From positions 1 to 26,847 of IMG/VR virus record IMGVR_UViG_3300028025_007032: a stretch of DNA of 26,847 bases. One strand, written 5' to 3'. The first letter of the stretch is position 1. Each line of letters begins with the position of its first letter. The notes under the pieces were generated by a model, which was given only the letters and a program-made list of their open reading frames with translations, was not told the DNA's origin and searched no databases. The translations under genes were made by a program, and so were the position numbers. Positions 8,426-25,731 of the stretch are shown in pieces. This DNA comes from a virus.

Positions 8426-8498
8426 GGTGCTTGCTAGACGCTCTGACTGCGCACCGGCAGAAATGATAATGACGCCCTCTAGCAAAAGGCCATTATCA
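8426..8498 (-). other. Possible structured RNA with interleaved stems (pseudoknot)
   Basis: Between tRNA-Ser and the 3' part of tRNA-Asn, two perfect 8-bp inverted repeats interleave. TTGCTAGA (8431-8438) pairs with TCTAGCAA (8478-8485), and TGATAATG (8464-8471) pairs with CATTATCA (8491-8498). The A-B-A'-B' order fits an H-type pseudoknot. GGTGC (8426-8430) can also pair with GCACC (8451-8455). No tRNA or credible ORF fits here. Confidence 0.45.
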
Positions 8499-8504
8499 GT
8501 ATAG

Positions 8505-8532
8505 TGGCTGGCAAGGTAGGGCTCGAACCTAC
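8505..8532 (-). tRNA. 3' part of split tRNA-Asn: T arm, acceptor, CCA
   Basis: Read on minus: T stem GTAGG/CCTAC with loop TTCGAGC, acceptor strand CTTGCCA, discriminator G and CCA. The acceptor strand is an exact complement of TGGCAAG at 9005-8999, which begins the 5' part. The stop codon TAG of the inserted HNH gene is formed by the first T-stem bases. Confidence 0.88.
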
Positions 8533-8945
8533 AGGGTTGTTTTTCTTGTGAATGTCCTAACCCGATGACAATTTGAGCAAACAACTTCGCATTTTTCAAT
8601 TTCTTTAATTAGTTTTTGTCTTGCGCATTGATTTACTAAAACAGAAATGTTTGCTGTTTTACCCTCTTTTACGTGGTCAAAGTCCATAACATACCCAGGA
8701 AAACTCTTTCCACAATCAGCGCAGGGTGTGGCCTCTTTTATTTCGGTAACTAGACGTTGTAGTTCTTTTCTTTCTTTTTTATTTCGTGCATAAACAATTT
8801 TGGAATGAGATTCACGGTTTTTTGAATATCTTTCTCGTGATTTTTTATTGTCACACGGCTTGCAATACGGCTGTCTGCGTTCTCCGCCCTTTTTATTGAA
8901 AGCATCTAAATTTTTGAGTTCCCCACATGATGAACATATTTTCAT
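8529..8945 (-). CDS. HNH endonuclease inserted inside a tRNA-Asn gene
   Basis: 138 residues. Cys4, Cys7, Cys28 and Cys31 form an N-terminal zinc knuckle. A basic helix region follows, and then the HNH core: CADC (75-78), YVMDFDHV with His91, NISVLV, and KCEVVCSNCHRVRT with Cys123, Cys126 and His127. This is the small phage HNH type that nicks or cuts DNA and spreads its own gene. The gene lies between the two parts of tRNA-Asn: its promoter overlaps the end of the 5' part and its stop TAG lies in the T arm. TATAAT seven bases before the ATG, with an upstream TGC, suggests its own leaderless transcript. The insert (about 430 bases) is almost all ORF, leaving little room for a group I intron core. 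Confidence 0.88.
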   Translation of the reverse strand: MKICSSCGELKNLDAFNKKGGERRQPYCKPCDNKKSRERYSKNRESHSKIVYARNKKERKELQRLVTEIKEATPCADCGKSFPGYVMDFDHVKEGKTANISVLVNQCARQKLIKEIEKCEVVCSNCHRVRTFTRKTTL

Positions 8946-8952
8946 ACTGTTA

Positions 8953-8958
8953 ATTATA
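8953..8958 (-). promoter_or_regulatory. Extended -10 box of the HNH gene
   Basis: TATAAT preceded by TGC (a TGn extension) ends seven bases before the ATG at 8945. It is a consensus extended -10 with no need for a -35. It lies in the loop side of an inverted repeat, ACTGTTAAT/ATTAACAGT, that reaches back into the tRNA anticodon loop. Confidence 0.6.
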
Positions 8959-8962
8959 GCAT

Positions 8963-9005
8963 ACGGATTAACAGTCCCTTGCTCTGCCGACTGAGCTACT
9001 TGCCA
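8963..9005 (-). tRNA. 5' part of split tRNA-Asn (GUU)
   Basis: Read on minus: acceptor TGGCAAG, TA, D arm GCTC/GAGC, then anticodon stem AGGGA, loop CTGTTAA (anticodon GUU) and TCCGT. The last five bases pair with AGGGA at four of five places. The T arm and 3' acceptor are missing here and are found 430 bases further on, past the HNH gene. It lies 5 bases after tRNA-Arg. Confidence 0.88.
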
Positions 9006-9010
9006 CTGTG

Positions 9011-9087: not shown

Positions 9088-9546
9088 TTATTTATTTCGC
9101 CTAATCCTAGCCGTTATCTTGATGCACTCTTTACACGACCTATCTATCTTTCCATTTTTTCTATGTTGTATTCTTACGCCAACAACACTAAATTCATGAC
9201 CTCGCCTACAGTGTGTTCTTTCCCTATTGGTCCAGCCATGTCTATCACTTTCAAACATATCTTTCATGTTGTCGGAGTTAGACCCAAGAACTAAATGCTC
9301 TGGATTTACGCAAGGTGGGTTGTTGCATTTATGACAAACAATTTGTCCATCTGGTATTTTGCCTTTATGAAAAAGATAGCTTGATACATGTGCCCCAATC
9401 GCGGGTTTTTTTGTGTAGTAGCAAAAAGAGCCATAATTTTTGCTTGTTCTTCCACCACTCCAAATCCAGCAATCTGGAAACTGTTCATTACCAGACTTAT
9501 CAACCTTCTGAAAAAATCTTTCGATTAGTGGCATGTGCTTAGCCAT
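9088..9546 (-). CDS. HNH_3 homing endonuclease with C-terminal zinc ribbon
   Basis: 152 residues. FFQKV and CWIWSGG at the N-terminus, then AHVSSYLFHKG, IVCHKCNNPPCVNPEHLVLG (71-88; His72, Asn81, His84) and DNMKDM follow the HNH_3 pattern of phage homing endonucleases. The tail has a ribbon with Cys113, His117, Cys138 and Cys141. It would cut DNA at an intronless target and be copied by repair. GAGGG five bases before the ATG supports this start, which overlaps the preceding HNH gene by 8 bases. It ends four bases before tRNA-Arg. The C-terminal ribbon resembles that of its neighbour, so the pair probably arose by duplication and divergence. Confidence 0.87.
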   Translation of the reverse strand: MAKHMPLIERFFQKVDKSGNEQFPDCWIWSGGRTSKNYGSFCYYTKKPAIGAHVSSYLFHKGKIPDGQIVCHKCNNPPCVNPEHLVLGSNSDNMKDMFESDRHGWTNRERTHCRRGHEFSVVGVRIQHRKNGKIDRSCKECIKITARIRRNK

Positions 9547-10171
9547 TTTCCCTCTTTCTATCTCTGACTCTTTTGCACTCTAAACAAAGCTTGTATGTGT
9601 TTCCATTTTTTTTAGTCACTGGTATCCAATCGGATACGGTTAGGTCGTGCCCACGTCTGCAGTGATTTGGCTTTTTAGGCTCTATTCCTTGCTTCCTTAA
9701 TTTTCTTACCCTGCCATCTTTCTTGTATTTTTTAATACATTCCCTACAGTTCTTTGCCGGTAAACCCGTTCTTCTACTTGGTCGCCATATTGTGTTTTCT
9801 TCATTAAATGGATGCCCATGTTTGCAGTGAGTTTTCCTGCTCTCTTTGTTGTTTCCGTGCGTAACAGAATAACGCTGATTATAAGAACGAGACTTGGCTT
9901 CTAGATGGTCTGGCCGAACACATGGAGGATGGTTGCATTTATGACAAACTTCAAGCCCCTTTGGGACTCGTTTCCCATTAGCCTTTTGCCAGCTATATAC
10001 GTGGGCACCAAGTTTTTTATTTACTCCATCTTGTTTGCATACAAAATGACCGTAATCTTTTACTGTATGCGCAGTCCATTCCCAGCAGTCTGGATAATCT
10101 GGATTTGGTCCAGATTTATCTACTTTTTCCCAAAAACGTTCTTCTTCTGGTATTGGTTTTCTTCCTGCCAT
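9539..10171 (-). CDS. HNH_3 homing endonuclease with two C-terminal zinc ribbons
   Basis: 210 residues. FWEKV, CWEWTAH, GAHVYSWQKANG and VCHKCNHPPCVRPDHL (75-90) match the HNH_3 core; Arg86 stands where the neighbour has Asn81, so catalysis may be altered. Two ribbons follow: Cys116, His120, Cys142, Cys145 and Cys171, His175, Cys196, Cys199. The neighbour has only one such ribbon. It starts five bases from the end of nrdJ, a common target of phage homing endonucleases. A promoter, TTGCGC-17-TAAAGT, ends six bases before the ATG, so it has its own leaderless-type start within the nrdJ 3' end. Confidence 0.86.
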   Translation of the reverse strand: MAGRKPIPEEERFWEKVDKSGPNPDYPDCWEWTAHTVKDYGHFVCKQDGVNKKLGAHVYSWQKANGKRVPKGLEVCHKCNHPPCVRPDHLEAKSRSYNQRYSVTHGNNKESRKTHCKHGHPFNEENTIWRPSRRTGLPAKNCRECIKKYKKDGRVRKLRKQGIEPKKPNHCRRGHDLTVSDWIPVTKKNGNTYKLCLECKRVRDRKRENG

Positions 10172-24907: not shown

Positions 24908-25650
24908 ATGAGTATTCATAAGCGCGTAGGTAAACGCGGAACTTCCTATCAAGTGAAATATCGCGATGCGAGTGGAAAGCAAATCGCCAAAACTTTTCGA
25001 ACCAAAAAAGAAGCAAGCTTATTTGAGGCTTTGCAGCAGAATGAAAAAAATAAAAACCGCATTTCCTCATTGGGCGATTACTCAAACTACGGCGCAATGG
25101 CAGGGCTGTATGAACGAGAAAAAAAGTTTAAACACGCTGGGAATCTTCGCCCGACCGACCGACCGCAACCAGCGTACCTGCAATGGCAGCATAACAATGA
25201 ACGATGTGACCGAAATGCTCCGTTACTGGAAGGCTCAGAAGGTTTAGACGCACTGTGGGACTGGCAGGAAAACCGCTGTGCGATGTGCGGATTCGAAGAT
25301 GACAAAATTGTAAAGGACCACTGCCACGAAAGCGGACTTATACGCGGGCTATTGTGCCATTCCTGTAATTTGAACGAGTCGAGCAACGATGACGTCCGCT
25401 GGCAGATTTATCGTAAATTTCCACCAACAATATTGCTAAATGTAAAAGTTTTCTATAACGATTTTTCATCATGGGGGCCCAAGGAGTGTGTTTTTTCAAA
25501 AGAAGCGATTGATACACCCTGGTGGGAGTCAGATAAGGAGCTCAGCTACCGAGTGTTGAATGATTTTTGCAATCATAAGATAAGTTTGAGTTGGATGGAC
25601 ACGGAACAGTTTTCCGGGCTAATCAAAACATCTATGGAATTTGCAAAAGA

Positions 25651-25660
<10 letters not shown>
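24908..25660 (+). CDS. Endonuclease VII-like homing endonuclease with integrase-type arm domain
   Basis: 250 residues. The first ~40 (SIHKRVGKRGTSYQVKYRDASGKQ then TFRTKKEA) look like the arm-type DNA-binding domain at the N-terminus of tyrosine integrases, but no integrase catalytic part follows. Residues 117-155 are the Endonuclease VII core: Cys124, Cys127, Asp137-His138-x-His140, then IRGLLCHSCN with Cys150, Cys153, Asn154. This joins site-specific DNA binding to a nuclease head, as in mobile endonucleases. A long C-terminal part (about 165-250) is unassigned. Its stop TAG is formed by bases 8-10 of the following tRNA, and the last codons overlap the tRNA acceptor strand. Confidence 0.84.
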
Positions 25661-25723
<63 letters not shown>

Positions 25724-25731
25724 CTAAATAC

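Follow-up and report, generated by a model that had tools for sequence, protein, structure and literature searches.

An intact HNH endonuclease gene is precisely inserted into a tRNA-Asn gene in the DNA analysed here, an IMG/VR virus record of 26.8 kb (26,847 nucleotides, hereafter the window), as comparison with the empty site in related phages shows, and the insertion belongs to a class of elements of the same kind. It is likely, judging from sequence, that a homing-endonuclease gene entered the anticodon arm and destroyed the tRNA, and that the class to which it belongs homes, usually replaces the tRNA that it breaks and represses its own expression. The features at the site are:

9083-9010, minus strand: intact tRNA-Arg (TCT), upstream neighbour and synteny marker
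9005-8965, minus strand: 5' part of tRNA-Asn, 41 nt, one mismatch to the intact tRNA-Asn of the related contig L084
8975-8967, minus strand: left arm of a dyad, ACTGTTAAT, the anticodon loop with one base on each side
8964-8533, minus strand: insert of 432 bp replacing 7 bp (CTGGGTC), its edges set by blastn against L083, L084, L085, L089 and L093
8961-8953, minus strand: extended -10 promoter TGCTATAAT, 7 nt 5' of the ATG, with a leaderless mRNA predicted
8954-8946, minus strand: right arm of the dyad, ATTAACAGT, repeating the anticodon loop in inverted orientation directly next to the HNH start codon, proposed operator half-site
8945-8529, minus strand: HNH endonuclease gene, 138 aa, matching phrog_2255 (E=2e-31) over residues 1-135
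8532-8505, minus strand: 3' part of tRNA-Asn (T arm, acceptor 3' strand CTTGCCA, G, CCA), no mismatches to L084
8421-8332, minus strand: intact tRNA-Ser (TGA), downstream neighbour and synteny marker

As a preliminary description of this DNA had proposed, the tRNA-Asn gene is cut in two by the HNH gene on the minus strand, and the positions first assigned to it hold. The 5' part, TGGCAAG TA GCTC AGTCGGCA GAGC A AGGGA CTGTTAA TCC, comprises the acceptor 5' strand, the D arm, the 5' strand of the anticodon stem, the loop CTGTTAA (anticodon GUU) and the TCC of the 3' strand of that stem; the 3' part reads GTAGG TTCGAGC CCTAC CTTGCCA G CCA. The two lie in the right order, 432 bp apart, and their acceptor strands pair at seven of seven positions, in agreement with the complementarity reported earlier. 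The 5' join falls after TCC in the 3' strand of the anticodon stem, one of the places first considered for it, and the 3' join exactly before T-stem position 49, the GT that apparently closes the anticodon stem being insert DNA and not tRNA. The insert is indeed nearly all HNH gene, a promoter region of merely 19 of its 432 bp preceding the ORF, whose last base and stop codon TAG (8531-8529) are supplied by the T stem (GTAGG) of the native tRNA. The broken gene was called neither by ARAGORN nor by Rfam at gathering score. The order along the minus strand is tRNA-Arg(TCT), broken tRNA-Asn, tRNA-Ser(TGA), a 2OG-oxygenase gene and tRNA-Thr(TGT) at 7372-7297.

A search among annotated phages found no close match to the window, and the 2OG-oxygenase gene, used as a synteny probe, led to contigs without this tRNA cluster. 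In the comparison with related phages that the preliminary description had proposed, L083, L084, L085, L089 and L093 all carry an intact tRNA-Asn in the same place between tRNA-Arg and tRNA-Ser, and the empty site is known because these sister phages, with the same tRNA order, keep it. The blastn alignments break at window positions 8965 and 8532 in five of five relatives, which have the 7 bp CTGGGTC there, and in most of the five the flanks show 84-87% identity across kilobases. As the relatives carry a single gene at this place, the two parts do not stem from two separate tRNAs.

Occupied and empty alleles of one site in close relatives are thus available for the window against five contigs and, in a second pair that is the clearest case by sequence and involves named phages, for Streptomyces phage Wofford compared with Karimac, a phage that has the same laboratory host. 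The two sequences match at 98.9% until a break in the second tRNA-Met, directly after CTCATAATCT, and the match resumes after the insertion; Wofford has 704 bp in place of 3 bp of Karimac, and both tRNA-Met halves are kept. The 704-bp element carries the HNH gene gp171, an intact tRNA-Met that overlaps the end of the HNH gene, and a small ORF. The phages Anedea and Riptide have the same HNH gene and tRNA as Wofford, and in most other sister records of Wofford the match is limited to the tRNA-Met stretch, up to the break. The window is a single metagenomic contig and a second copy of the same phage is absent, as would be the case for an assembly artefact or chimera, but joins of this kind are also seen in the contigs L002, L102 and L160b, and the architecture is matched in the records of the named phages Wofford, Anedea, TunaTartare and Naboo. 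Because the architecture recurs in unrelated contigs the insert is not an assembly join, and the chance of an artefact is negligible.

The broken tRNA-Asn is most likely dead, as its sequence indicates and as the preliminary description had allowed; the other route that it considered, an unusual way of making the tRNA, finds no support. Were the two parts expressed and joined, by splicing, trans-ligation or an unrecognised ribozyme, tRNA-Asn would still be made, and it is true that both parts are intact with a perfect acceptor stem and that related records show one tRNA-Asn, the one that is broken here. Such joining is very unlikely, however, given that no intron family matches, that the 432 bp leave 19 bp beyond the ORF and that 7 bp of the tRNA are gone. 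If the parts are joined at their true edges the variable loop is absent, and if GTATGCT of the insert is retained at the join a G-G mismatch arises in the anticodon stem. Rfam models of group I and II intron cores gave no match in the window at the gathering score, nor in 8490-9008 at E<=5, and a group I or II intron was rejected on these grounds; the earlier remark that there is little room for a group I intron agrees with this. A spliced or split functional tRNA was likewise rejected, since 7 bp are missing, 19 bp are all that is non-coding in the insert, and the 3' half has decayed in the contig L002. The latter has the same 5' half and dyad and an HNH protein 65% identical to that of the window, the pair evolving under purifying selection (dN 0.28, dS 2.2), while its 3' tRNA part has decayed to TGTAGATTATCCCCACCT, whose alignment to the window 3' part is equalled by 0.05% of shuffles. 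Moreover, in most related elements the HNH gene is accompanied by an intact tRNA with the same anticodon, which would be needless if the parts were spliced. Each of seven related records of 32 to 172 kb shows one tRNA-Asn pattern match, so the window phage probably lost its sole copy and probably depends on the tRNA-Asn of its host.

The protein encoded by the insert is identified as an HNH endonuclease by its family match and by its conserved catalytic and zinc residues, and is predicted to cleave DNA. No Pfam family matched it, so the family assignment is that of the phrog_2255 profile. Two N-terminal CxxC pairs are followed by CxxC..DFDH..CxNCH, and C4, C7, C28, C31, C75, C78, D90, H91, C123, N125 and H127 are invariant in 14 proteins, C126 nearly so; D90, H91, N125 and H127 are the HNH core residues. 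An AlphaFold2 model reached a pLDDT of 92, and a search of PDB structures with it gave no significant match, the nearest being GmeHNH (4h9d) and EndoVII, so that the predicted fold says no more than 'HNH-like'. A tree built from 21 element proteins places the three Asn proteins in a fully supported group and joins two Lys proteins at 96/96 and two Gly-TCC proteins at 94/89, most deeper forks being poorly resolved; this grouping by isotype fits the prediction that enzyme and target co-evolve.

A survey gave 221 distinct relatives of the HNH gene of the window, the start codons of several HNH genes being placed by alignment. In the class delimited among them, the tRNA genes of phages, of many isotypes, are broken in the anticodon arm by HNH genes that belong to one family, and the HNH gene usually adjoins an intact replacement tRNA with the same anticodon, whose 5' end it often overlaps, as read from the sequences. 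The following arrangements occur:

Layout A, 5' half, HNH gene, replacement tRNA and sometimes the native 3' half: L102 (Asn), L003 (Arg-TCG), L004 and L115 (Lys), L116 (Cys), L124 (Gly), L126 and L146a (Arg-ACG), L160a (Glu), Wofford and Anedea (Met)
Layout B, 5' half, replacement tRNA, HNH gene, 3' half: L157 (Arg-ACG) and L146b (Val, read by eye)
Layout C, intact tRNA, HNH gene, orphan 3' half: TunaTartare (Arg-ACG) and Naboo (Thr)
Layout D, 5' half, HNH gene and 3' half only: the window, L160b (Arg-TCG) and L002 (3' half decayed)

Layout C looks as though a new 3' half had come with the element. In the window, L114, L115, L126, L160b, L157 and L146b the HNH gene stands between orphan halves whose acceptors are complementary. 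The window gene lies in the anticodon arm with the 5' half directly upstream, and its promoter bears the cognate anticodon loop in inverted copy, as in the class; because an intact tRNA of the same anticodon is absent from the window, this copy is filed, like L002 and L160b, as a variant and not as a full member. The counterpart L102, found by the pattern GACTGTTAATCN{4,30}ATTAACAGT, has the same 5' half, dyad and HNH gene, and there the HNH stop lies inside an intact tRNA-Asn of different sequence. In an earlier set the HNH stop overlapped or abutted a downstream tRNA in 38 of 142 loci.

It might be argued that a free-standing HNH gene landed here by illegitimate recombination, tRNA genes being permissive and the anticodon arm not specifically targeted. 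The family does occur away from tRNAs (103 of the 221 relatives have none within 400 nt), and phage HNH genes generally sit beside tRNAs (PMC5966550). Nevertheless, the same break point recurs in tRNAs of many isotypes, the anticodons of the half and of the carried tRNA match, and the dyads bear the cognate loop, all of which makes an untargeted landing improbable. When orphan 5' halves were called among the 221 relatives blind to their neighbours, those with a tRNA nearby matched its anticodon in 11 of 14 loci, against a null mean of 1.35 and maximum of 6 in 5,000 draws; in this and the other null model the tRNAs are drawn from the same locus pool, with relatedness not fully corrected, and all counts come from searches seeded with class members and are not estimates of prevalence. 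Automatic 5'-half calls at L230, L131, L119, L271 and L272 were discarded as false, their loops being odd and the cognate tRNA absent.

Two replacement tRNAs deserve mention. The anticodon loops of tRNAs almost universally carry U33. The replacement tRNA-Lys of L004 (3430-3503) has C33 in its place (loop CCTTTAA), possibly an escape from its own nuclease. In L124 the broken and the replacement tRNA-Gly are identical over all 17 bases of the anticodon arm, so that protection or immunity cannot rest on that arm alone.

The preliminary description also reported an inverted copy of the anticodon-loop sequence within the insert. The dyad ACTGTTAAT/ATTAACAGT is exact and is common to L002 and L102, and the feature extends to other elements, in which other loops are copied:

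Arg-TCG: AGTCTTCGAA/TTCGAAGACT
Cys: TTCTGCAAAAT/ATTTTGCAGAA
Lys: TAACTTTTAACT/AGTTAAAAGTTA
Gly: ACTTCCAAT/ATTGGAAGT
Arg-ACG: CTACGAA/TTCGTAG
Thr: ATTGTAA/TTACAAT

Dyads of at least 7 bp number 55 against 21 in shuffles (2.6 times commoner), and in 11 of 41 loci their arms match the loop of the anticodon in a tRNA nearby, the null giving a mean of 1.4 and a maximum of 7 in 3,000 draws; the window and L002 are outside these 11, and one of them, L270, lies in AT-rich DNA and may be a chance match. A first test, in which inverted copies were scored against the anticodon arm of the replacement, gave a weak signal, since outside the loop this arm and that of the target are usually unlike; scoring against the loop gave a clear result. 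As for the 'own consensus promoter' attributed to the insert, a -10 of its own is present, but 'consensus' overstates it, since there is no -35 and a sigma-70 -35/-10 scan did not report the HNH promoter. The motif TANNNT precedes the start by 5-8 nt in 12 of the 16 element genes, compared with 39 of the other 205 (p=6e-6), which implies that element mRNAs probably start at or near the ATG, the dyad overlapping or preceding the -10.

This geometry, together with the dyad sequences, favours a DNA operator that copies the target. A competing explanation of the operator step only, that the dyad works as RNA, with a hairpin in the read-through transcript of the tRNA operon hiding the HNH start while mRNA from the internal promoter is unstructured, is possible but less probable. 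I-TevI and T4 segB offer precedents, the stems fold as predicted, and the window -10 lies between the arms as in hairpin-regulated T4 endonucleases (PMC2988022). Against it, the window stretch as a whole folds no better than shuffles (z -0.29), and pairing would require no particular sequence, while in L106, L214, L215 and L216 the dyad is detached from the broken tRNA, away from any 5' half, and still keeps the cognate loop, so that the dyad sequence matters and not pairing alone. Those four dyads also coincide with the -10 or lie upstream of it, and so fall beyond the mRNA that is predicted.

Three loci touch on these dyads. In L215 (Streptomyces phage Mildred21, MF155946.1) an annotated tRNA-Phe(gaa) at 1140-1215 contains CTGGCTTCGAACCAG, which reads as an Arg-TCG arm; with the CTTCGAA/TTCGAAG dyad of the adjacent HNH gene, this indicates that the tRNA-Phe is probably misnamed. 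L120 carries, near position 627, a second HNH gene that is highly divergent, has an ATTAACA dyad and is followed directly by a tRNA-Asn; this locus is uncertain, as it is present in one of two dyad listings and absent from the other. The contig L207, from a Kaiserbacteria MAG, has near 1959 an HNH gene of the window family with a Pro-TGG loop dyad (TTTGGGAT) and a tRNA-Pro(TGG) downstream, and the class may extend to prophages or bacteria.

In the mechanism that we propose, the HNH enzyme would recognise anticodon-loop DNA and cut or nick the unoccupied tRNA gene of a co-infecting phage, the element would be copied into the cut site by recombination, and the replacement tRNA that it carries would make good the lost one, a half of the model that is inapplicable to the window copy. 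The dyad would act as an operator, binding of the enzyme shutting off its own leaderless promoter, for which I-TevI provides a precedent. The broadest form of the proposal, a widespread class of phage homing elements in which the HNH enzyme reads anticodon-loop DNA, breaks the tRNA of a competitor, installs a replacement isoacceptor and controls itself by a dyad copying its target, we regard as evenly balanced between right and wrong.

Parts of this scheme are known from other systems. Group I introns with endonuclease genes occur in bacterial tRNA genes; as in the window, an endonuclease gene then lies inside a tRNA near the anticodon, but those introns splice, whereas the window insert is without an intron and so without splicing. 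The nrdA gene split by MobE still works in pieces. MobE in nrdA of Aeh1 and MobA in T4 gene 60 are free-standing HNH genes that, like the window gene, split phage genes without an intron (PMC2988022); gene 60 also goes on functioning in pieces, whereas the split tRNA is most likely non-functional and in most cases has a replacement. In T4, the GIY-YIG enzyme SegB has cut sites inside tRNA genes and drives tRNA inheritance or amplification (PMC2988022; PMC13096335); like the HNH enzymes of the window class it is a homing endonuclease tied to a phage tRNA cluster, but it is of another nuclease family, sits between tRNAs, splits none and has no paired replacement isoacceptor. The I-TevI operator matches the homing site at 15 of 20 positions and overlaps the promoter, where binding autorepresses, and promoter-overlapping copies of the homing site, with probable autorepression, are reported for I-TevII and I-TevIII (PMC2988022). 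With the anticodon loop taken as the target, the window dyad is likewise a target copy overlapping the promoter of the endonuclease itself; these three enzymes are, however, intron-encoded, whereas here the mimic is a dyad that varies with the tRNA isotype, and its repression would follow by analogy. In fungal mitochondria the mORFs of atp6, atp9, cox2 and nad3 are endonuclease genes that insert into a target gene and carry a substitute for the part that is lost, the native end persisting as a relic (PMC3630166). TunaTartare and Naboo, with intact tRNA, HNH gene and orphan 3' half, closely resemble this arrangement; the fungal cases differ in concerning mitochondrial protein genes and LAGLIDADG or GIY-YIG enzymes, while here the setting is phage, the enzyme HNH and the cargo a tRNA or a tRNA 3' half.

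For HNH genes adjoining mycobacteriophage tRNA arrays, a role in diversifying the tRNA repertoire has been suggested (PMC5966550, with reference to Pope et al. 2014), the available part of that account making no mention of split tRNAs, matched anticodons or the dyad. Gene splitting by HNH genes, copies of lost parts in fungi, SegB cuts in tRNAs and HNH genes beside phage tRNAs are therefore already known; in the open-licence literature searched, no description was found of HNH elements that break tRNAs within the anticodon arm and combine this with a replacement and a dyad that both match the tRNA. The reasons for which phages carry tRNAs, and for which HNH genes gather around these, are a long-standing question, and elements that disrupt a tRNA gene while supplying another in its stead would offer a direct mechanism for the turnover of phage tRNAs. 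If the proposal is true, these elements are tRNA-swapping devices that shape phage tRNA repertoires, and provided that each dyad identifies the target of its enzyme, target specificity would be predictable from sequence for dozens of HNH enzymes.

Other nuclease genes of the window also adjoin tRNAs:

24908-25660, plus strand: Endonuclease VII-type gene, 250 aa (PF02945, E=4e-11; weak match to an integrase-type arm domain)
25651-25724, plus strand: intact tRNA-Met, inside which the Endonuclease VII-type gene ends
9088-9546 and 9539-10171, minus strand: tandem HNH_3 endonuclease genes between a ribonucleotide reductase gene and tRNA-Arg

In the related record L096 the Endonuclease VII-type gene is absent and the tRNA-Met (98.8% identical over 82 nt) follows the upstream gene by a few bases, so that this gene and its tRNA-Met look like a second nuclease-plus-tRNA insertion in the window. 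The tRNA-proximal HNH_3 gene ends 4 bases before tRNA-Arg. Annotation often overlooks or misnames split tRNAs as well as the HNH genes that they contain, and unannotated HNH genes of the window family were also observed between tRNAs in Myxococcus phage Mx1 (L103, 1501-1929) and Mycobacterium phage ET08 (L104, 1501-1902).
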